Part shown: positions 21,464 to 34,300 of the stretch, piece after piece
How the letters are laid out: the number at the start of each line of letters is the position of its first letter
Position numbering within the stretch: the stretch's first letter is position 1
The notes under the pieces: generated by a model
The model's input: only the letters and a program-made list of their open reading frames with translations
Told to the model about the DNA's origin: nothing
The model's database searches: none
Virus record (IMG/VR): IMGVR_UViG_3300045974_000562
Span: 1-34,300 of that record
Source: a virus
DNA length: 34,300 nt
Direction: 5' to 3' (one strand)
Position numbers and translations under genes: made by a program

Positions 21464-22826
21464 ACTTGCTGATAATTTCGTTTTAGAATTATTCAAATGC
21501 GCATTTAAAAATGATTATGTTTTTGAAACAATAATAAAACATTTAAAATATTCATATCTTACTTTTGATTATGAAAAAAAGTTTTGGAAAAAATGTCAAC
21601 AATTATTCTTTGATAAAAATAGACCACCCTCATTAGGATTGATTCAAGCTGAATTAAAAAGAGATGAAGATGTTAGAGATTTTATTTATGAAATAAAGTC
21701 ATCTGACGATGTTGACCCTAAAGATTTGATTATCTCACTTCAGACTTACATTAAAGAAAGTATGTATGTTGAGATTTTTGAAAAGTCTGGAGATTTATAT
21801 AACAGAGGGGAGCAAGAACAGGCTATAAAAGTTTTCCAAAAGGGTTCAGATGAAATAAATAATTTATCTTTACATGATAAGATTTATGAAAAATTATTTG
21901 GAGACTTTAATGATAGATTTGAAGAACGTAGAAACCCAGAAAATCATAATGATAAATTACCACTCTTTATAGATAAGTTAGATGAACATACTTTTGGTGG
22001 GCCAGAGAAAGGTGAAACGGTTTTATTCTTGGCTGAGTCTGGTATAGGAAAATCTCAACTACTTATACACTATGCCGTTAGAACTGCCGTATCAGGCAAG
22101 AATGTCCTATTCTTTCAAATTGAGGGAACTAAAAAACAAGTTATGACAAGAATGGATGCTGCTTGGTCAGGATTGCCTTATAATGAAGTAAAATTTTCTC
22201 AAATATCAAGTGATGAAAAAGAAAGGAGAAAAAAAATAAACGATGCTTTGAAAAAAATGAGTGGTGAGATTTTTATAGAAGCATTTGAAAAATTCGGTGG
22301 CGTTTCTACTTTAGGAATAAAGCAATCAATAAAAGAGGCAAAGAAACTTTATGGAGAAATAGATTTGGTTTGCGTCGATTATTTAGAATTATGCGATGTT
22401 GAAGATGGTATAAATTATGGGCCAAGTATGGAGCGTTTTAGACAACAAAAAATTGCTCAACATTTCAAAGAAATTGCTATGGAAGAAAATTTAGTTTTAG
22501 CAACTGTAACCCAAGCATCTAATTTAGCAAGTGATTTAAAAAATGATTCATCTTTTGTTATGACCAGAGAATATCTTGCTGAAGATAAAGGTAAAATTAG
22601 AGCGTTTGATTATTTTTATACTTTGAATCAAACCATAGATGAAAAAAGACATAAAAATGAAAAGGGTGAATATGCTTCAGTTATAAGAATTTTTGAAGAT
22701 AAAATACGTGACTATCCATCAGGTGAAACAATTACTATTGTAACTAATTTCAAACGTTCAAGATTTTATGACAAAGCCAGAACTTTGGAATATGTTGTAA
22801 ATAATGATGAAATGGAAAATGATTGA
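21450..22826 (+). CDS. dnaB: Replicative DNA helicase, DnaB family
   Basis: This 458-residue protein has an N-terminal helical region (about 1-150) and a RecA-type core: Walker A AESGIGKS at 195-202, FFQIEGTKKQVMTRMDAAWS after strand 2, Walker B LVCVDYLEL at 306-314, and TVTQASNLASDL as the Q-bearing motif. A late NFKRSRFYDKA segment resembles the arginine-finger/DNA-loop region. It would form the hexameric 5'-3' helicase at the fork, like T4 gp41, and load with the primase encoded one gene further on. The ATG overlaps the upstream gene by 14 bases. The GIY-YIG gene follows immediately. Confidence 0.88.
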   Translation: MKENKLADNFVLELFKCAFKNDYVFETIIKHLKYSYLTFDYEKKFWKKCQQLFFDKNRPPSLGLIQAELKRDEDVRDFIYEIKSSDDVDPKDLIISLQTYIKESMYVEIFEKSGDLYNRGEQEQAIKVFQKGSDEINNLSLHDKIYEKLFGDFNDRFEERRNPENHNDKLPLFIDKLDEHTFGGPEKGETVLFLAESGIGKSQLLIHYAVRTAVSGKNVLFFQIEGTKKQVMTRMDAAWSGLPYNEVKFSQISSDEKERRKKINDALKKMSGEIFIEAFEKFGGVSTLGIKQSIKEAKKLYGEIDLVCVDYLELCDVEDGINYGPSMERFRQQKIAQHFKEIAMEENLVLATVTQASNLASDLKNDSSFVMTREYLAEDKGKIRAFDYFYTLNQTIDEKRHKNEKGEYASVIRIFEDKIRDYPSGETITIVTNFKRSRFYDKARTLEYVVNNDEMEND

Positions 22827-22828
22827 TT

Positions 22829-23416
22829 ATGATTATTTACAAAATAACTAATATTTTAAATAATAAAGTTTATATAGGACTTACTGTACAAAATTTAAAT
22901 GATAGATTTAAACAACATTTAAATGGAGTTAATTCAGGAAGTAATTGTCAATTACATAGAGCAATAAGAAAATATGGAGTTGAAAATTTTAAAGTAGAAA
23001 AAATTTGTAGATGTAATTCAATAGATAAAATGAAAAAATTAGAAATTTTATTTATTAAAAAATTTAATTCTTTTGAAAACGGATATAATATGACTTCTGG
23101 AGGTGATGGATGTACCGACTATTGGAAAGGTAAAAAGCATAAACAATCTACTAAAGATTTAATGAAAATTAAAATGATTGGAAATGATAATGCTAAATTC
23201 AGAGTTAATTTTGTAAAAGTTGATTTATTAGATTCAGATGGTAAAATAATAAAAACATTTAATTCTATAAAAGAAGCTGCTGATGAATTAAAAATAAAAT
23301 GTCCAAGTGACATAACTTCTTATTGTAGAGGTTATAAAAAGTCATTTAATAAAGGATTTATATTTAGATACTCTAATAGAAAATACAAGACTAAAAACGA
23401 TGAAAACCATACCTAA
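22829..23416 (+). CDS. GIY-YIG homing endonuclease, free-standing
   Basis: I use ATG 22829 (195 residues), 2 bases after the helicase stop, rather than TTG 22823. Visible motifs, numbered from this start: IIYKITN (the GIY strand, degenerate) at 2-8, YIG at 15-17, Arg26 in DRFKQH, Glu72 in KLEILFIKKF, and NGYNMTSGG. Then come a NUMOD3-like DNA-binding segment (DYWKGKKHKQSTKDLMKIKM, 97-116) and a NUMOD1-like segment near the end (FNSIKEAADELKI). It would nick or cut DNA and spread by homing, like T4 seg genes. It separates helicase from primase, has no intron around it, and overlaps the primase start by 17 bases. Confidence 0.88.
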   Translation: MIIYKITNILNNKVYIGLTVQNLNDRFKQHLNGVNSGSNCQLHRAIRKYGVENFKVEKICRCNSIDKMKKLEILFIKKFNSFENGYNMTSGGDGCTDYWKGKKHKQSTKDLMKIKMIGNDNAKFRVNFVKVDLLDSDGKIIKTFNSIKEAADELKIKCPSDITSYCRGYKKSFNKGFIFRYSNRKYKTKNDENHT

Positions 23417-25119: not shown

Positions 25120-25671
25120 ATGACAAAAGTTGAAGTTTTTTACGACAGATATGCTTATTTAGCAGACTACTATGCCAAAAAAGTTTGGGATACAAAAAAT
25201 ATCGGAATGGAATTGGACGATATTAAACAGGAATTGAGAATAAAATTATTCCTATCAATTAAGACTTACGCAAAAAAATGGGGTGAGTACAAAAAGACAG
25301 GTAGAATGAAACCGATGCCAATCGAATTTTATTTAAAAACTGTTATGTTGAATCAAGTTAGGGATTTTATAAAAGAAATAAATAAAGTTAGTTTTTGCGA
25401 TTTAGAAACCGTGTATAATCTACAAGTTAGTCAGGAAATGTTTGAAATATCCAGAACTGATATAAAAGTAGGTTTTCAAAATTTATCGGATTTATTTGAA
25501 GATAAAAAACAAAAAAGAATAATGAAATTATATTTTTTACATGATTATGATATAAAAAATATTTTCAAGTTTAGTAAAGGTAAAACAAAAGTCGAGAGAG
25601 AAAGAGAAATAAAGGAAACTGTAAATGATGGTTTGTTAAAAATAAGAGAATATCTTGAAGAAAAACCATAA
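25120..25671 (+). CDS. RNA polymerase sigma factor-like protein
   Basis: This is a 183-residue protein. The N-terminal half (LADYYAKKV, then ELDDIKQELRIKLFLSIKTY, then MPIEFYLKTVMLNQVRDFIK) follows the layout of sigma region 2: an acidic D-x-x-QE-x-R helix, an aromatic helix, and the N-x-x-x-D-x-x-K/R helix that reads the -10 element. The C-terminal half ends in helices with a basic patch (FSKGKTKVEREREIKETVND) where a region 4-like helix-turn-helix would sit. Its size is close to T4 gp55, the late sigma factor. Redirecting host RNA polymerase to phage late promoters is a reasonable inference; the similarity is structural and weak. Confidence 0.5.
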   Translation: MTKVEVFYDRYAYLADYYAKKVWDTKNIGMELDDIKQELRIKLFLSIKTYAKKWGEYKKTGRMKPMPIEFYLKTVMLNQVRDFIKEINKVSFCDLETVYNLQVSQEMFEISRTDIKVGFQNLSDLFEDKKQKRIMKLYFLHDYDIKNIFKFSKGKTKVEREREIKETVNDGLLKIREYLEEKP

Positions 25672-25740: not shown

Positions 25741-26859
25741 ATGGCAAAATTAAGTAAAGACCAATTATCGAAATTAGAAAAAATTGGTGTTAAAGGTTGT
25801 AAAACTACTGAAGACAGTAGAGAAAAAATGGTTGAATTAATGGTAGAATTAGGTATTGAAGACGATGGTGAATCGTGGGAAGATGTCTATGATATCGTAG
25901 CAACGTTATTAGATGACCCAGAGTCAGAAAATGACGAACTTGCTGACGAAGTGGAAGATGAGGATGACGATACTGAAGATTCAGACGATGAGGATGAAGA
26001 CGATGATGAGGATGACTCAGACGATGAAGAAGATGAGGATGAAGAAGAAGAGGATGAAAAGCCTGCTCCGAAAAAATCTTCAAAAGCACCAACACCAGCT
26101 CCAAAGAAATCTTCAAAAGTTGAAGAAACTAAAAAACCTGTAAAAGAAGAAACTAAAAAAGTATCAAAAGCACCTGCTGCTAAAGTTGAGAAAAAAGTTT
26201 CAAAACGTTTGAATCCTAAAGAGAATAAAGAGGATGCTGCCCTTTATGATATCCTTAAAAAGGCATTATCTAAATTTGGAGAATTTGAATACAACTTTAT
26301 TGCTAATGGAGGTGTATCAATAAAATATTTAGGTAAAAATTCAACAAAAGTGTTTTTCTCTTTTGACTCACCTAAATTAATTGATAATAAGGTAGTTGGT
26401 AGAGTTTACTCTTCAGCAATCAAAACTGATGAAAAACTTGCTGAAATGTTCGGTGAAGATTTTGAAATCAAACAAGATTGGTCAGGTATTCCTATTATGG
26501 TTGAAATTTCTTTAGAAGACATAGTTGCCGCATTAAAAGAAAATAAAGAGTCATTTGAAGCATTCTTAAAAAATCTTGAAGGCAAAGATGTTAAATTAGG
26601 AAAAAATCGTGAGAAAATGGAAGAGCAGCTAAAAGAAACTCAAAAAGAGAAAGCAAAAGCTGTTAAGAAATCTGCTCCAAAACCAGTCGTTGAGGAAGAT
26701 GAGGATGATGAAGAAGATGAGGATGAAGTTGTAAAACCAACTCCAAAAAAATCTTCAAAAAAACCTGTAGTTGAAGAGGATGAAGATGAGGATGAAGAGG
26801 ATGAAAAACCAGCTCCAAAGAAATCTTCAAAAGTTTCTGACAAGAAAAAGAAAAAATAA
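25741..26859 (+). CDS. Unknown protein with acidic and KPAPKKSSK linker repeats, probable SSB partner
   Basis: This is a 372-residue protein of unknown family with four parts. An N-terminal helical domain (1-60, MAKLSKDQLSKLEKIGVKG) is followed by a long Asp/Glu run (about 60-105). Next comes a Lys/Pro/Ser/Ala linker. A folded core lies at about 158-285 (FGEFEYNFIANGGVSIKYLG, then IPIMVEISLEDIVAALKENK). The C-terminus alternates acidic blocks with PKKSSK units. The same linkers, including an exact 68-base DNA match, occur in the gp32-like SSB at the window end, and both genes start in AGTCATGGCAAAA. SSB partner, nucleic-acid mimic or storage protein are all possible; none is shown. Confidence 0.7.
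   Translation: MAKLSKDQLSKLEKIGVKGCKTTEDSREKMVELMVELGIEDDGESWEDVYDIVATLLDDPESENDELADEVEDEDDDTEDSDDEDEDDDEDDSDDEEDEDEEEEDEKPAPKKSSKAPTPAPKKSSKVEETKKPVKEETKKVSKAPAAKVEKKVSKRLNPKENKEDAALYDILKKALSKFGEFEYNFIANGGVSIKYLGKNSTKVFFSFDSPKLIDNKVVGRVYSSAIKTDEKLAEMFGEDFEIKQDWSGIPIMVEISLEDIVAALKENKESFEAFLKNLEGKDVKLGKNREKMEEQLKETQKEKAKAVKKSAPKPVVEEDEDDEEDEDEVVKPTPKKSSKKPVVEEDEDEDEEDEKPAPKKSSKVSDKKKKK
26023..26090 (+). repeat. 68-base exact direct repeat, copy 1
   Basis: These 68 bases inside the acidic-linker gene are identical to 34233-34300 in the SSB gene and are read in the same frame relative to the protein (ending EEEEDEKPAPKKSSKAP). The left boundary differs by one base (C here, G in the other copy). 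The right end of the other copy is cut by the window, so the repeat may be longer. Confidence 0.95.
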
Positions 26860-26881
26860 AAATTTTCTAAATTTAATTAAT

Positions 26882-26913
26882 AAATGCCTTATTTTACAAT
26901 AGGGCATTTTTTA
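26882..26913 (+). terminator. Hairpin terminator after the acidic-linker gene
   Basis: AAATGCCTTATT (26882-26893) pairs with AATAGGGCATTT (26898-26909): 12 base pairs with one G-U wobble and a TTAC loop, followed by a T run. It lies 23 bases after the stop codon and before the thymidylate-synthase-family gene, a strong Rho-independent terminator. Confidence 0.88.
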
Positions 26914-26956
26914 TTTCAAAGTTATTATAATAAACGAAAATTAAATATTATATATT

Positions 26957-28132
26957 ATGAAAAATCAAATTATTAACAATTCTTTAAGTACAGAAAATTT
27001 CTCAAAATCATATCCTTTTTTAAATAAATATCTTTTTGAAAATGCTGATTTTGTAAATAGTAGAAATGGAGATACTAAAGAAATATTAAATTTTAAGACC
27101 GAATTAACCAACCCTTATAAAAGATGTGTTGGTAATAATGAAAGAGGTGTAAATATTTTCTTTTTATTAGCAGAAGCAATCTGGATTTTTAGAGGTCGTA
27201 AAGATGTTCAATTTTTAGAAATATTTAATTCAAAAATGAAAGACTACTCAGATGATGGAAAAGTTTTTCATGCTCCATACGGATTTAGAATGAGGCATTA
27301 TGGCGTTTCTTCATTCGATGTTATAAAACCTTTAGGTGAAGAACAAAATCACGCAGCCAATCAATTAATTGATGGAACTGACCAAATTTTTGATTCTATT
27401 CAAATGTTGTCTGAAGATGCCGAAAGTAGGAGAGTTGTAATTTCAATTTGGAACCCTGAATTAGATTTAGGAACTAATTCAAAAGACTTACCATGTAATG
27501 ATTTATTAATGTTAAAGATTAGAAATAATAAACTACATTCTACAATATCAAATAGAAGTAATGATTTACATTGGGGGTTGCCTACAAATATTTTTCAGTT
27601 TTCATTCGTTACAGAAGTAATAAGTAATGTTTTAGGAATTGAACTTGGAACTCAGGTTCATAATTCTCAAAGTCTTCATTTTTATTTAGATAATGATATT
27701 GCTATGAAGATGTATGAAAATTTACAGTTTTCAAATTCTGATTTTGTTGACCTTTATGATTTTACTCAACCATTTAAAATTGATATGAAATTTTCTGGAG
27801 ATAGTATATATCTTAAATTACAAGAAGTTGATTACTTTTTAGACTTAATAATAAATTCTATTTTAAGTGGAGTAAAACTTGATGATTCAAAACAAATTGA
27901 TTTAGGAATTTTCTCAGAATTTTTATTATTCACATATAGACTTCTTTGGGTTTATAATGAATATAAATTTGAACAAAAAGATGAATTGGTCAAAGTTAAT
28001 TATTATAATTCTATCAAAAACGATTTTTCTGATTACAGTAATACGGATTTATATGCTTTGGCTTTAAATTTCTTTGCTTCAAGAATACCTGAAAAATACA
28101 GAACCGATAATAACATAATTGGAAAATTATAA
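26957..28132 (+). CDS. thyA: Thymidylate synthase family enzyme (ThyA-type)
   Basis: This 391-residue protein keeps the ThyA framework: AEAIWIFRG with Glu73, APYGFRMR, the phosphate-binding pair SRR (Arg158, Arg159) before VVISIWN, catalytic Cys180 in DLPCN, NRSNDLHWGLPTN with Arg200, Ser201, Asp203, Gly207 and Asn211, and LHFY with His241 and Tyr243. Asn211, equal to the E. coli uracil-reading Asn177, favours dUMP as substrate. The residue after the catalytic Cys is Asn rather than the usual His. It is over 100 residues longer than E. coli ThyA, mostly at the C-terminus. It makes dTMP, or possibly hydroxymethyl-dUMP, for phage DNA synthesis. Its stop overlaps the polymerase start (TAATG). 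Confidence 0.82.
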   Translation: MKNQIINNSLSTENFSKSYPFLNKYLFENADFVNSRNGDTKEILNFKTELTNPYKRCVGNNERGVNIFFLLAEAIWIFRGRKDVQFLEIFNSKMKDYSDDGKVFHAPYGFRMRHYGVSSFDVIKPLGEEQNHAANQLIDGTDQIFDSIQMLSEDAESRRVVISIWNPELDLGTNSKDLPCNDLLMLKIRNNKLHSTISNRSNDLHWGLPTNIFQFSFVTEVISNVLGIELGTQVHNSQSLHFYLDNDIAMKMYENLQFSNSDFVDLYDFTQPFKIDMKFSGDSIYLKLQEVDYFLDLIINSILSGVKLDDSKQIDLGIFSEFLLFTYRLLWVYNEYKFEQKDELVKVNYYNSIKNDFSDYSNTDLYALALNFFASRIPEKYRTDNNIIGKL

Positions 28133-31100
28133 TGAAAGATTTAAAAATTTGGATAAAACAAAGTAATATAAACTGTACCTTTTCAGGTGCAGTTTTGTTT
28201 ATTGATAATTTTGGTAAACTACTTTTCATACCAGAAAAAGATGGTATTATAATACAAAAAGATTATTCATTGATTTTAAGTGATGAAGAATATGATTTAC
28301 TTGACGAAGATGCTGAAATAAAAAATGTTGTTTTTAAATTTGGAAATAGATATTTCTTTTGTTCAGTAAATAATAGAAAAAAGAACGAATATAATGAAGA
28401 TGTTATTGAACCAAGATTTAACGACTTTAGAAATATTGGAGAATTCAACTCAGATTTTAATGATTTGAATTTTTGTCATTTAGGAGTTCATACAGGTTAT
28501 GAGTTATTAAATGGTAGTGGAGATGCTGATAGCTGGTTAAAAAAGGCAAAACACTTTAAATACAACAGTTTAGGTATTTGTGAAAGAAATACGTTGGCAG
28601 GTACTTTATCATTTCAATTACAATGTGAAAAACATTCTATAAAAAGTATTTTAGGTGAAACAATTTCTGTAGTTTATAATTACAATGCTGAAAAGGAATT
28701 TCAAGACACTTATGAAGTAAAAGTGTATGTAAAGAATAGTTTAGGTTGGAAAAATTTATTAAGAATATCTAAAGCAATAAATGTAGATTATAAAGAATTT
28801 ATACCATTAGAGGAACTGCTTGAGTTATCAGATGGTTTATCTTTTGTATTTTTCAAAGAAAGTTATTTATATGATAACATTTATAAAAAAGAAAATTTCT
28901 TAAAAGATTTAAAATTATGGAAATCTAAAATAAAAAAATCCGATTTATATTTTCAAATTGATTTAAATGAATTCTCAGATGATTCATTAGATATTGAGAA
29001 TTTAAAAAGAATAAAGCATTATTTTGAAAATTACTCTAATTTAATCAAACCTATTTATATTGAAGATTGTTATTATGTAGAAAAAATTGATTCACAAGTA
29101 AAATCTATTCTTAATAAAATAGACAGAAAAACAATACCATCTTCAAATGAACAATATTTCAAAAGCATTGATGATATAATAGAAAAAAATATTGGATTAT
29201 TTGTTAGTGATGATTCATTAGATTTATTTTTTCAATCAATTGAAAATACATTTGAATTATCTGAGAAATGTAATTTTAAAATAGATATTGGTAATCATAA
29301 ACTTCCAAAATATAAAGTCAAAAATAAAATACAATTTTATCATGATTTGATTGAAAAGGGATTTGAGCAAAAAGTTTTGAATAAATTCAAAGATGAAAAA
29401 ACTATAAATAAATACATTGAAAGAATACAAGAGGAAAATGATGTAATTTTAGGTGCTGACTTATCAGATTATTTCTTAATATTGTGGGATGTAGTTAATT
29501 GGGCAAAAAGTGAGAATATTTTAGTTGGACCAGGCAGGGGTTCAGCTGGAGGTTCATTAGTCGCTTATATGTTAGGAATAATTGAAATTGACCCTATACA
29601 ATACGATTTATTATTTGAACGTTTCTTGAATAAAACGAGGGTTTCAGGTGAAAGAGCAAAGTCTGCCGATTCATTGCCTGATATTGATATCGACTTTGAA
29701 GGCAAAAGAAGACAAGATGTTAAAAGATATATTGAAAAAAGATTTAATGTACATAACGTTTGTTCAATCGGAACTTATACCAGATTAAAAACAAAATCAG
29801 CAATAAAAGATTTTGGTAGAGCAAAAGGAATTGATTTCAAAAAAGTAAATTTTGCAACAAAACTTATACCAGATTCAATTGATTATAATTGGTCAGACAT
29901 TTTCACAAATTCATTAAAATCTGAAGATTTAAAGAATTTTGTTCAAGATAATATAGATATTTGCGAAATAATAAAAGCACCATTAGGTCAACCACGTTCA
30001 AAATCAATACACCCATCAGCTGTAGTTATTGTACCGAAAGAAGATGAAGATGGTAATCCGATGGAAGTTTATGATTGGATGCCTGTTAAATTAATTGATG
30101 GGCAAATTGTATCTGAATGGGAGGGTAAATATATTGATAGAGCAGGATTTTTAAAAGAAGACATATTGGGAATTGCTCAGCTTGATAAATTTAGATATAT
30201 GATAGATTTGATTCATAAAAATCATAATACTATTTTAGATTTAAATGATATACCTACAAAAGACAAAGTTGTATTTGAATATTTTTCTAAAGGTTGGAAT
30301 GAAGATGTTTTTCAATTTGGAACAGCTGGTTTAAAGACCTATTCATTCAGAGTAAAACCGAAAGCAATTGAAGATTTAATTTCTATGAATGCTTTATTCA
30401 GACCTGGCCCAATGGACTCAGATGCTCATAACGATTTTGTAGAATACAGAAGAGGTAAGAAAAAAGCAGTTTTTGATTTAGGAATGGAAGAGGTTTTGAA
30501 AAACACTCAAGGTTTATATATCTATCAAGAACAAGTAATGCAAGCGATGGTGGTTGGAGGTTTGACTTTATCTGAAGCAGACCAAGTTAGAACTTATATG
30601 AAGAAGTTTGATAAAGTGGCACTTGCTAAATTTCATGAAAAGTTTATTGATGGATATTCTAAAGTTTTAATTGAAAAGGGATTTAAAAAAGATGTTGAAA
30701 AAGAGGCAAACAAAGTTTGGGATAAATTAAATGCCTTTAGTAGTTATGGTTTCAACAGGTCACACGCTGCCGCTTATTCTTTAATGGGTTATTGGAGTCA
30801 ATGGTTAAAGGTAAATTATCCATTAGAATTTTGGACAGCATCTTTAAACTTTGCCGATGAAAACGAGCAAATACCAAATAGAATTTCTGAGATAAAAAGA
30901 ATTAATGATGGAATCAGAGTTACTGAACCTGATATAAATAAGTCGGACATAAACTTCACATCAGATATTGAAGAAAAAAGAATTTATTGGTCATTAACTA
31001 AAATAAAATATGTTGGTGAAGTAGCAGTTAGAGTTATTTTAGATGAAAGATTAAATGGTGAATTTTTTAGTCTTGAAGATTTTTTAAATAGAGTTCCTAA

Positions 31101-31722
31101 AGCAAAAGTAAATAAAAAAACTGTACAATGTTTAATATCGGCAGGTGCTTTTGATAGGATATCATCTGAAAAAATTAATATAGATGGAAAGCCTCAAGCG
31201 AAACATAGATATTTATTATTGAAAACATTTTTAGAATCAAGAAATGAATCAATTCCTGAAGATATTGAAAATTCAACATTCAAAAACAAAAATTGGTTTT
31301 GGAGAGTTAAACAAAAGGAGTTGACAGGTTTTGGAGATATAAACTATAAAGCACTTGTAGTTAGAAAATGGTTGCCTTTAAAAAATGTTGAAAAACAATA
31401 TTTAGATGGTGATTTAATAAACGATTTTGTTTTTGAAGATAAGAGTTTTAGAAAAACAATCATAGCTGGCAGAATCATGCATTTAAAAGAAAAGGATTCA
31501 AAAAGAGGTGAATATGCTACAATTTCTTTAGAGCATAATAATTCCGTAGTTTTAATTCAACTTTGGAATGACGTTTGGGGTAAACCAGCTATTCAAAAAA
31601 AATTACAAGAATTAAAAGTAAATAAAAATATGTTTGCTATATCAGGTGAAATAAAATACGATACTTGGAGAAATAGAAACATATTTTTAGGAGATGAAAA
31701 TACAAAAATAATAGAAATATAA
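28132..31722 (+). CDS. dnaE: DNA polymerase III alpha subunit (family C, DnaE-like)
   Basis: This is a 1196-residue protein. It has an unrecognised N-terminal region (1-113), then a PHP domain starting CHLGVHTGYELLNG (His116, His120). The polymerase core contains LVGPGRGSAGGSLVAYMLGI near 464-482, catalytic Asp519 and Asp521 in LPDIDIDF (with Asp517), and a third candidate Asp560 in AIKDFGRAKG. Next come VFQFGTAG, ALFRPGPMDSD, GLYIYQEQVMQ and YGFNRSHAAAYSL, a helix-hairpin-helix region, and a C-terminal OB-like domain (IIAGRIMHLKEKDSKRGEYA). It would be the replicative polymerase; a bacterial-type family C enzyme is unusual in a phage with an otherwise T4-like set. No clear clamp-binding motif is seen at the C-terminus. 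Confidence 0.92.
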   Translation: MKDLKIWIKQSNINCTFSGAVLFIDNFGKLLFIPEKDGIIIQKDYSLILSDEEYDLLDEDAEIKNVVFKFGNRYFFCSVNNRKKNEYNEDVIEPRFNDFRNIGEFNSDFNDLNFCHLGVHTGYELLNGSGDADSWLKKAKHFKYNSLGICERNTLAGTLSFQLQCEKHSIKSILGETISVVYNYNAEKEFQDTYEVKVYVKNSLGWKNLLRISKAINVDYKEFIPLEELLELSDGLSFVFFKESYLYDNIYKKENFLKDLKLWKSKIKKSDLYFQIDLNEFSDDSLDIENLKRIKHYFENYSNLIKPIYIEDCYYVEKIDSQVKSILNKIDRKTIPSSNEQYFKSIDDIIEKNIGLFVSDDSLDLFFQSIENTFELSEKCNFKIDIGNHKLPKYKVKNKIQFYHDLIEKGFEQKVLNKFKDEKTINKYIERIQEENDVILGADLSDYFLILWDVVNWAKSENILVGPGRGSAGGSLVAYMLGIIEIDPIQYDLLFERFLNKTRVSGERAKSADSLPDIDIDFEGKRRQDVKRYIEKRFNVHNVCSIGTYTRLKTKSAIKDFGRAKGIDFKKVNFATKLIPDSIDYNWSDIFTNSLKSEDLKNFVQDNIDICEIIKAPLGQPRSKSIHPSAVVIVPKEDEDGNPMEVYDWMPVKLIDGQIVSEWEGKYIDRAGFLKEDILGIAQLDKFRYMIDLIHKNHNTILDLNDIPTKDKVVFEYFSKGWNEDVFQFGTAGLKTYSFRVKPKAIEDLISMNALFRPGPMDSDAHNDFVEYRRGKKKAVFDLGMEEVLKNTQGLYIYQEQVMQAMVVGGLTLSEADQVRTYMKKFDKVALAKFHEKFIDGYSKVLIEKGFKKDVEKEANKVWDKLNAFSSYGFNRSHAAAYSLMGYWSQWLKVNYPLEFWTASLNFADENEQIPNRISEIKRINDGIRVTEPDINKSDINFTSDIEEKRIYWSLTKIKYVGEVAVRVILDERLNGEFFSLEDFLNRVPKAKVNKKTVQCLISAGAFDRISSEKINIDGKPQAKHRYLLLKTFLESRNESIPEDIENSTFKNKNWFWRVKQKELTGFGDINYKALVVRKWLPLKNVEKQYLDGDLINDFVFEDKSFRKTIIAGRIMHLKEKDSKRGEYATISLEHNNSVVLIQLWNDVWGKPAIQKKLQELKVNKNMFAISGEIKYDTWRNRNIFLGDENTKIIEI

Positions 31723-31725
31723 ATT

Positions 31726-32337
31726 ATGGAAATTTTTAGAAAGTTTTTAAATGACCCTGAGTTCGACCAAATAAATAATATGGTTAGATGGAATGGAGTA
31801 AGTAGGATAAAAGATGAAACTGTTGCTCATCATTCTTACATAGTAGCTTGGTTAAGTAGAGTCATAGCTGAGGAAATGTTTGATGATGATTCAATAAAAT
31901 TAAAAATAGTTTCTTTTGCATTATTTCATGATTTTGACGAGATGTTTACAGGTGATGTTCTTAATCCATTCAAGTACAATTCATTCAATGGTGTAGAAAT
32001 AAGAAATTGTATTGACGAATTTTTAAATTACAAAATAAAAAATAAATTCAATTCTCAATCCAATTCAGATAAAATGTTCAGAGAATTATTGTTAAAAGAT
32101 TTTCCTGATTATGTATCTAAAATAGTAAAAGTTTCAGATTGGTTTTCTATGTATTTTTATTTAGTGAAAGAAATTAAACTTGGAAATAAAGGGGTTGATA
32201 AACAAAGAGAATTTTGTATTCAAAGTATTAAAATCGCATGTGACGATTGTATTGAAACTATAAAAAAATTAGATTTAGGTTTCAAGGTTAATTTAGATGT
32301 TTTAGAAGAAATTAAAAATTTAAACTTTTATGAGTGA
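31726..32337 (+). CDS. HD-domain 5'-nucleotidase, YfbR-like
   Basis: At 203 residues this is close to E. coli YfbR (199). Motifs in order: RWNGVSR (Arg21, Trp22, where YfbR uses Arg/Trp to select the deoxy sugar), ETVAHHSYIVA with His36, HDFDEMFTGD with His68, Asp69, Glu72 and Asp77, and KVSDW with Asp138. These are the HD metal and catalytic positions. YfbR-type enzymes remove phosphate from deoxynucleoside monophosphates. Next to a thymidylate synthase and polymerase, the enzyme probably adjusts nucleotide pools in the infected cell. It is 3 bases after the polymerase gene and overlaps the next start. Substrate choice cannot be read from sequence. Confidence 0.8.
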   Translation: MEIFRKFLNDPEFDQINNMVRWNGVSRIKDETVAHHSYIVAWLSRVIAEEMFDDDSIKLKIVSFALFHDFDEMFTGDVLNPFKYNSFNGVEIRNCIDEFLNYKIKNKFNSQSNSDKMFRELLLKDFPDYVSKIVKVSDWFSMYFYLVKEIKLGNKGVDKQREFCIQSIKIACDDCIETIKKLDLGFKVNLDVLEEIKNLNFYE

Positions 32338-32617
32338 ATTAGTTGATAAACTTGAAGAGTCAAACAGAGCCAAATATGGCGAAAAGGAATTTGACCAGAT
32401 TGCTGAAAATTATAGAATTAGTAAAGAAAGTGGGGACACGTGGTGTGCTGAAAATGTTAAAAGGTATTTGAACCGATTTAAAAGACCAGGCAGTACAAAA
32501 TCTAACAATCTTACAGATTTGTATAAGGCTAAAGATTATTTGAATAGAATGATTGAAGCAAATGAAAAATTGTCTAACATTTCAACTAAAGAGGTTGAAG
32601 AAAATTTTACAAAATAA
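32330..32617 (+). CDS. DUF3310-like small protein
   Basis: This is a 95-residue protein. Residues about 34-75 contain SGDTWCAENVKRYLNRFKRP, then NLTDLYKAKDYLNRMI. This matches the 'N-x-x-KYL-x-R-x-x-x-K ... DL-x-KA-x-x-YL-x-x-x-I' pattern of DUF3310, a small helical domain frequent in phage nucleotide-metabolism and replication regions. The function of that domain is unknown to me. The ATG overlaps the HD gene stop by 8 bases, and its own stop overlaps the next ATG (TAATG), so it is part of the nucleotide/replication operon. Confidence 0.6.
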   Translation: MSELVDKLEESNRAKYGEKEFDQIAENYRISKESGDTWCAENVKRYLNRFKRPGSTKSNNLTDLYKAKDYLNRMIEANEKLSNISTKEVEENFTK

Positions 32618-33135
32618 TGGCTAAATTAGTATTCAATATTGGAGATAAATTGGTTAAGTTTACAATTGAAGATTTTAAAGAGAATGTTGATATAGACAGA
32701 CTTTTGAAAATTGACTATGGTAACTTGATAGCAGAACTTATAACTTTTCCAGTTATTTTAAATAAGATTGGTATTTTAAATGCTGATATGGAATCAGAAT
32801 TAAGATTAGGCAAAATGAATTTTAAAATTCGTGAGGCTAAAATAAGAAATCAAGTCAGAGAAAACTTTGCTTCAGATGGTAAAAAGGCTACTGTTAATGA
32901 GGTTGAAGAGGGTTTGATTGCTAATAAGATATACCAGAAATATCAAAAAGATTATTATGAAATCGAAAAGCAAAAAGATTACATAATGTCTATTTATATT
33001 GCGGCTAAAGACAAGAGTGAAAAGTTGAATAAACTTTCTCTTACTTTAAGAACAGGAGACATTGATGAGGAGTTAATTCAAAAACAACTTAACAACGTTT
33101 ATTATAAAATAAAGAATAACAAAAAAGAAGATTAA
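32617..33135 (+). CDS. UvsY-like candidate recombination mediator
   Basis: This 172-residue protein is almost wholly helical after residue 40. The body, with charged helices (KMNFKIREAKIRNQVRE), ATVNEVEEGLIANKIYQKYQ and a final helix rich in Asp and Lys (IYIAAKDKSEKLNKLSLTLR), follows a pattern I associate with UvsY-type mediators. These load the phage recombinase onto SSB-coated DNA. It lies 17 bases before the gp32-like SSB gene, a fitting position. No recombinase (UvsX/RecA) gene lies in the window, so the call is tentative; a general helical accessory protein is the alternative. Confidence 0.45.
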   Translation: MAKLVFNIGDKLVKFTIEDFKENVDIDRLLKIDYGNLIAELITFPVILNKIGILNADMESELRLGKMNFKIREAKIRNQVRENFASDGKKATVNEVEEGLIANKIYQKYQKDYYEIEKQKDYIMSIYIAAKDKSEKLNKLSLTLRTGDIDEELIQKQLNNVYYKIKNNKKED

Positions 33136-33152
33136 TAACTAAAAATTAAGTC

Positions 33153-34300
33153 ATGGCAAAAGAAACCAAAGGCAATTCAAGAGTTGAAGAACTAAAAAAA
33201 CTCATGAAGAAAAATGCACCTCAATTAGCTGAGGTTAAGAAACTAAATCAGGTTGATGATGATTCAATCGGATATAAAACAGGTGGAGACTATCTTGATT
33301 TTGAAGATGGTAAAACTATTAGATTGAGATTTTTTCCATCTCACGAGTCAGGTTCAAACTTTTTTAAATTAAGAAAAAGATATTGGTTGCCTGTTGAAAA
33401 AGAAGATGGCGATTTTGGAAAAACAACTGTTTTTGATTCTATCCATCACGGTGGAACAAAAATGGATATTGTAGATGAATATCGTAAACTTGCTAATAAA
33501 TTACTTAAAGGTGATGATAAAGGCTTGAAAAAAATTAACGATACTTATGGCGGTGGAATTGCTCCATCTATTGATTGGGTTGCTTATGCTTTGAAAATTA
33601 CTGGAGATAAGAGAGAATTTGGAATCATTCCTTTCAAAAAAACTGTTCGTGATGAAATCAATAAAATTAACTTTATTGAAGAAGATGATGAACCTGTTGA
33701 AACTGTAGATACATTTACAGGTGAGGGTTATCCTTTACTTGTAAAATATTTATCAAAACCTAACAAGAAAAAAGGTGAAGACTACTATTCTTGCCAGAAA
33801 GGTAAAAAACCTATTGAAGTTGAGGATGAAGAAATCTTAAAATGGGGAGATGCTAAACCACTTACAGAAATCTATAATAATGTTTATGGTTTAAAAGATT
33901 TTGAAAAAGCACTTGAATGTTTAAGAATTTTTGATGAACAAGAGGACTTTGGAATTTTTGAAGATGATAGATGGGAAGACATTGTAGAAAACGTTAAGGC
34001 TCAATATGAAGATTCAGACGATGATGACGATGACGAAGATGAAAAACCTGTTAAAAAATCTTCAAAAAAATCAGCCACACCTGTTAAAAAATCTTCAAAA
34101 AAAGTAGTTGAAGAAGATGACGATGAGGATGATGAAGACGATGAAGAAGATGAAAAACCCGCTCCAAAGAAATCTTCAAAAAAGCCTGTCGTTGAAGACG
34201 ATGAAGATGAAGATGAGGATGAAGAAGATGAGGATGAAGAAGATGAGGATGAAGAAGAAGAGGATGAAAAGCCTGCTCCGAAAAAATCTTCAAAAGCACC
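33153..34300 (+). CDS. gp32-like single-stranded-DNA-binding protein (3' end outside window)
   Basis: The gene starts at ATG 33153 and is open to the window end (382 complete codons). Similarity to T4 gp32: a basic, helical N-terminus (about 1-35) for self-association; GGDYLDFEDGKTIRLRFFPS at about 44-63, the gp32 'VIRFLPS' strand; KLRKRYWLPVEKEDG; YALKITGDKREFGIIPFKKT; and EGYPLLVKYLS at about 191-201. The zinc-ligand cysteines of gp32 are missing. From about residue 287 a long acidic tail with KPVKKSSK and KPAPKKSSK units replaces the short gp32 acidic tail, which normally binds replication partners. It coats single-stranded DNA at forks and during recombination. Confidence 0.72.
   Translation, partial: MAKETKGNSRVEELKKLMKKNAPQLAEVKKLNQVDDDSIGYKTGGDYLDFEDGKTIRLRFFPSHESGSNFFKLRKRYWLPVEKEDGDFGKTTVFDSIHHGGTKMDIVDEYRKLANKLLKGDDKGLKKINDTYGGGIAPSIDWVAYALKITGDKREFGIIPFKKTVRDEINKINFIEEDDEPVETVDTFTGEGYPLLVKYLSKPNKKKGEDYYSCQKGKKPIEVEDEEILKWGDAKPLTEIYNNVYGLKDFEKALECLRIFDEQEDFGIFEDDRWEDIVENVKAQYEDSDDDDDDEDEKPVKKSSKKSATPVKKSSKKVVEEDDDEDDEDDEEDEKPAPKKSSKKPVVEDDEDEDEDEEDEDEEDEDEEEEDEKPAPKKSSKA
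34233..34300 (+). repeat. 68-base exact direct repeat, copy 2 (window edge)
   Basis: Identical to 26023-26090, and ends exactly with the window, so its full length is unknown. It encodes the acidic and KPAPKKSSKAP part of the SSB tail. Confidence 0.95.

Follow-up and report, generated by a model that had tools for sequence, protein, structure and literature searches.

An SSB with a gp32-like predicted fold and a previously undescribed 372-aa protein (hereafter UNK) occurred together throughout one clade of contigs from uncultured phages, and the charged linkers of UNK and the tail of the SSB are, in several genomes, partly copied between the two genes at the level of DNA. The window, by which we mean the whole 34.3-kb IMG/VR contig (34,300 nucleotides) that was analyzed, contains both. 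They represent a conserved protein pair in which the disordered charged arms of an SSB and of a putative DNA-binding-type protein evolve in concert. Even if the arms share no partner, the pair clearly exemplifies the exchange of disordered tails, within a genome, between genes that are not homologous, and a small folded module was probably exchanged between the UNK and SSB genes as well.

The gene pair and its genomic neighborhood

The called ORFs of UNK (25741-26859, plus strand) and the SSB (33153-34300, plus strand) were confirmed, and both encode the alternating acidic and KPAPKKSSK-type linkers that the initial annotation had described, together with PVVE units. KKSSK units were absent from every third gene called in the window, and the genes between UNK and the SSB (thymidylate synthase, DnaE, a YfbR-like HD protein and others) were unrelated to either. 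The C-terminus of the SSB is not visible in the window because its gene runs off the contig end. Directly upstream of UNK lies a gene (25120-25671, plus strand) whose product we call sigma-70-like from matches to region 2 only, together with its synteny: Pfam Sigma70_r2 matched 12 of 19 relatives (best 2.1e-8), and the match of the family to TIGR02937 was weak. Solved structures searched by sequence gave nothing convincing for this protein. Elsewhere in the window, the start of the ORF at 22823-23416, between helicase and primase (IIYKITNILNNKVYIGLT), resembles a GIY-YIG nuclease by eye, and a small protein at 32330-32617 shows weak similarity to DUF3310 and to the C-termini of phage nucleotide kinase families.

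Relatives were collected by scanning IMG/VR, with E-values that refer to the candidates only. A first search with full-length UNK was overwhelmed by acidic patterns; the UNK core retrieved 25 loci and the SSB profile 45 loci, and all relatives carrying UNK were metagenomic contigs. The informative loci shared one gene order, namely a DnaB-like helicase, primase, a small gene, the sigma-like gene, UNK, thymidylate synthase, DnaE, the YfbR-like HD protein, one or more small genes and the SSB. In these relatives, UNK directly followed the sigma-70-region-2-like gene, with the SSB about 6-8 kb further downstream. Among the SSB-driven loci, UNK was present wherever enough upstream DNA was available, and no such locus was without it. 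The independent cases of co-occurrence number roughly two dozen, because the proteins of several contigs are identical and some of the UNKs incomplete. In L006, L015, L028, L029 and L033, DnaE was best matched by a shorter ORF, about 2.0-2.1 kb long, so DnaE may be two genes there; it is annotated as split in two genes in Cellulophaga phage phiST.

UNK had no match in named phages, and none was found in bacterial genomes in a scan with one peptide pattern only. A weak match in Bacteroides phage DAC16 (E 0.002) was rejected, as the protein looks unrelated and the match disappeared with the deeper profile A8, which also detected no UNK in DAC16, MA9V-3, phiST or Larrie. The co-occurrence that the initial annotation had proposed to check holds within the clade but not beyond it: the distant phages DAC16 and Chryseobacterium phage MA9V-3 have an SSB with an acidic tail and a basic tip, and UNK is undetectable in them. 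At this long distance, the pattern is one that the initial annotation had named as evidence against its own reading. By SSB and DnaE, the closest named phages infect Bacteroides, Chryseobacterium, Cellulophaga and Tenacibaculum, and for this reason a Bacteroidota host is likely for the phages carrying UNK.

Predicted structure of UNK

An AlphaFold2 model of the window UNK, built with 23 sequences, was confident over residues 1-60, mostly disordered over residues 62-150, mostly above pLDDT 90 over the core and long helix (residues 155-310), and disordered in the tail. The N-terminal helical domain of 60 aa (25741-25920; pLDDT 81-92), for which no clear relatives were found, is followed by a disordered acidic linker block (25921-26058) and a lysine-rich block that holds the KPAPKKSSK units (26059-26202). 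Net charge ranged from -17 to -69 in the acidic block and from +5 to +17 in the lysine-rich block in the relatives measured, and the order of acidic then lysine-rich was kept in 21/21 despite sequence turnover. The KPAPKKSSK-type units of the window, in contrast, proved to be lineage-specific rather than conserved: the UNK of L019 has neither long acidic runs nor KKSSK, yet retains the acidic-then-basic order. Beyond the linker, a core with a predicted MotA-CTD/YjbR-like fold (26203-26535; pLDDT about 88-95), which bears out the earlier claim of a folded core of its own, leads to a long helix with a conserved LGxNRxKM motif (26545-26670) and to a disordered C-terminal tail of alternating acidic and KKSSK units (26671-26856), whose length and charge varied among the 21 relatives measured. 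(All UNK features are on the plus strand.)

UNK matched no curated family above threshold, and nothing convincing was found for it by sequence among solved structures. With Foldseek against the PDB, the best seven matches of the core were T4 MotA structures (E 0.04-0.1, prob 0.72-0.93), including chain M of the sigma appropriation complex 6k4y, which we take to be MotA; the eighth was YjbR (2a1v; E 0.1). In a viral structure library, the best match was MotA of phage Bp7 (E 0.013, prob 0.98). None of the core matches was significant (E ≤ 0.001), and the likeness is suggestive. Profile-profile alignment of the core with the MotA CTD (hhalign) gave P 0.009 and a probability of only 4.5%, and 0/15 UNK records matched Pfam MotCF (PF09158); the strand order can be matched to the MotA CTD by eye. 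YjbR/DUF419 has a similar topology, gave no Pfam or other sequence match to UNK, and has no such linkers reported in 2a1v. The UNK core thus looks like a MotA-type domain in its modeled fold.

In MotA, a flexible linker connects the NTD, which sits on sigma region 4, with the double-wing CTD, which sits on DNA (PMC6755090). UNK resembles T4 MotA, its nearest structural match in both libraries, in this layout of N-domain, flexible linker and C-domain and in adjoining a sigma-like gene. It differs in the N-domain, the very acidic linker, the long helix and the lack of a family-level sequence match, and its neighbor is a phage-encoded sigma-like protein, whereas MotA acts with AsiA and the host sigma.

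Core, tail and tip of the SSB

For the SSB, the structure of the relative L032 was predicted, and the window protein was placed by alignment with it. The L032 model matched gp32 (1gpc) in Foldseek at E 5e-7 and prob 1.0; the SSB is gp32-like by its predicted fold, as the initial annotation had proposed. The window SSB also matched a PHROG SSB family (E 4.5e-11), partly over the tail. The core (33153-34007, plus strand) shares about 17% identity with T4 gp32 in the structural alignment, and a zinc-binding His/Cys cluster was unsupported, as no position that is fully or almost fully conserved across 18 SSB sequences holds a cysteine. Like gp32, the protein carries an acidic disordered C-terminal domain. 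In the window this acidic/KKSSK tail (34008-34300, plus strand) is cut by the contig end; full-length tails of relatives measured about 111-181 aa, i.e., 2-4 times the 48-aa C-domain of T4, so that the tail is indeed greatly lengthened. They alternate in charge, often contain a two-helix module and end in a basic segment. The description of this tail as acidic is right for its net charge (-22 to -47) and wrong for its tip, which is nearly always basic (S-[LMI]-x-[DE]-I-[RK]-x-[KR]-L, then lysines; L108 differs). A disordered linker with a conserved C-terminal tip is also found in E. coli SSB, where the tip is acidic.

Exchange of linker DNA between the two genes

UNK and the SSB were rejected as paralogues in their cores (hhalign probability 0.2%). 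UNK linker 4-mers scored 0.164 against the SSB tail of their own genome and 0.099 against those of other genomes, a difference reached in 0/10,000 permutations (16 genomes, including the window and L006, with truncated SSB or UNK). Local DNA scores of own-genome pairs likewise exceeded those of mismatched pairs (0/20,000 permutations, 15 genomes).

In the window, a 68-nt exact repeat occurs in UNK (26023-26090) and in the SSB (34233-34300), both on the plus strand, and the second copy stops with the final nucleotide of the contig. The DNA score of the window pair exceeded all 400 codon shuffles; when the 68-nt end match was removed, the window was not significant alone (37/400 shuffles). The assembly probably broke inside the repeat, since the contig ends exactly where the repeat does. 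This match is weak alone, and the argument is therefore carried by internal matches in other contigs. UNK and the SSB tail were identical over 80/86 nt in L071 (0/200 shuffles reached the score), over 50/50 nt within the module in L027 (0/400), over 67/70 nt in L037 (0/400) and over 62/72 nt in L032 (1/400); in L029 and L025 the observed score was above nearly all codon shuffles. The proposal that the linker was copied onto the second protein is upheld for several genomes, among them L071, L027 and L037, as exchange at the DNA level. The codon shuffles preserve each protein and its codon usage and leave local codon autocorrelation uncontrolled; stretches of proline, serine or module are the stronger cases.

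Similarity was not clearly above the codon-shuffle null in L007, L009, L010, L012, L019, L022, L033, L034, L073, L093, L094, L102 and L108; in the majority of genomes tested, copying was either absent or short of significance. These 13 genomes would suit a simpler explanation, that the arms are ordinary charged low-complexity linkers in which lysine and acidic spacers come to look alike through replication slippage, codon bias and short recombination events, with no shared partner or mechanism. The free variation of the KKSSK units, including their absence from the L019 UNK, and the occurrence of further acidic-linker proteins in relatives point the same way. Against it stand the within-genome sharing that beats permutation, the acidic-then-basic order in every UNK measured and the basic tip of nearly all SSBs, as well as the confinement of the module, described below, to UNK and the SSB in the relatives scanned. 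We consider this explanation unlikely, while ranking it first among the alternatives.

A two-helix module in both proteins

In most SSBs, a 44-aa module (consensus EFDxMDRxELKxYIKENxLDVxVKKSMxDDDIREAIR) occurs once or twice in the tail; it was modeled as two helices with pLDDT of about 91-95. The module is also found inside the acidic linker of UNK in L004, L024, L026, L027 and L032, and it is present in both proteins, with both complete, in L027 and L032. No third protein with the module was found in three relatives scanned over nearly the whole record (the final 717 bases of G006, a record without any module, were left out). Pfam Ish1 (PF10281) matched 9/15 members at E ≤ 0.1 (best 1.1e-4), and the one score seen together with its cut-off fell below it. 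The module also showed weak similarity to an endonuclease VII PHROG, and it had no match in named phages by tblastn and no convincing solved structure by sequence. Two other proteins of related genomes in which long acidic stretches precede a short C-terminal segment, without the module, are encoded at L052:2078-2503 and L066:17719-18207 (minus strand).

Proposed role of the arms

We tentatively favor the reading, possible though still short of probable, that UNK is a clade-specific DNA-binding-type protein that probably works alongside the replication machinery and the sigma-like factor encoded next to it, and whose charged arms are homogenized with the SSB tail. UNK would combine a short helical N-domain, an acidic then lysine linker, a MotA-CTD/YjbR-like core and a long helix; by analogy with MotA (PMC6755090), it would work with the sigma-like protein. 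Its linkers and the SSB tail would be one kind of charged disordered arm, whose resemblance in any one genome is maintained by repeated local copying of low-complexity repeats, and sometimes of the Ish1/LEM-like two-helix module, at the DNA level. The acidic C-domain of gp32 (48 residues in T4) blocks the DNA site of the protein itself and is where partners make contact (PMC5892887). By analogy, the acidic blocks here may occupy basic DNA-binding surfaces in competition with nucleic acid and serve as docking sites for partners, the lysine block beside the UNK core may help to grip DNA, and the basic tip of the SSB tail may dock a dedicated partner.

The initial annotation had instead proposed a replication scaffold, in which equivalent arms let the SSB and UNK bind a common set of replisome partners, or the two proteins condense together on single-stranded DNA. 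Both genes do lie within a cluster with DnaB-like helicase, primase and DnaE, and they always co-occur in the clade. Under crowding, T4 gp32 condenses at concentrations similar to those of E. coli SSB (PMC11951158), and because of this behavior condensation of the SSB and UNK would be plausible. However, the acidic tail and the basic tip persist in distant SSBs where UNK is undetectable, and both the likeness of the UNK core to a DNA-binding domain of MotA type and the constant immediate neighbor of UNK, the sigma-like gene, point equally to transcription; we regard the scaffold as quite unlikely. About as improbable is parallel adaptation, with arms doing the same physical job (DNA mimicry, autoinhibition or solubility) in a pair of DNA-binding proteins that have no contact with each other, and with copying as a by-product of repeat-mediated recombination, which would fit the autoinhibitory acidic C-domain of gp32 (PMC5892887) and the acidic block that always flanks the DNA-binding-type core of UNK, but would not by itself explain a folded two-helix module in both proteins.

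A bolder reading can be conceived, to which we give little credence: the SSB and a MotA-like factor would carry interchangeable arms, homogenized by gene conversion, that dock the same partner (e.g., the sigma-like protein or polymerase) and physically couple phage transcription to replicating DNA. If the arms do share a partner, the link between replication and transcription would be built differently from the sliding-clamp route of T4.

Start contexts

The two genes had been noted to start in the same context, and the window does contain AGTCATGGCAAAA at exactly two places; in relatives, however, the two genes have no common start context, so the coincidence of contexts looks fortuitous, and we rejected it as a regulatory signal. 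Separately, a TTAAATTGTAAA-type motif was seen within a few bases upstream of start codons, both for UNK in the genomes of L019 and L012 and for some other genes, with sites at L060:12530 (minus strand), L065:7218 (minus strand), L052:7903 (plus strand) and L053:18967 (plus strand); it is possibly a phage promoter or a start-proximal signal.
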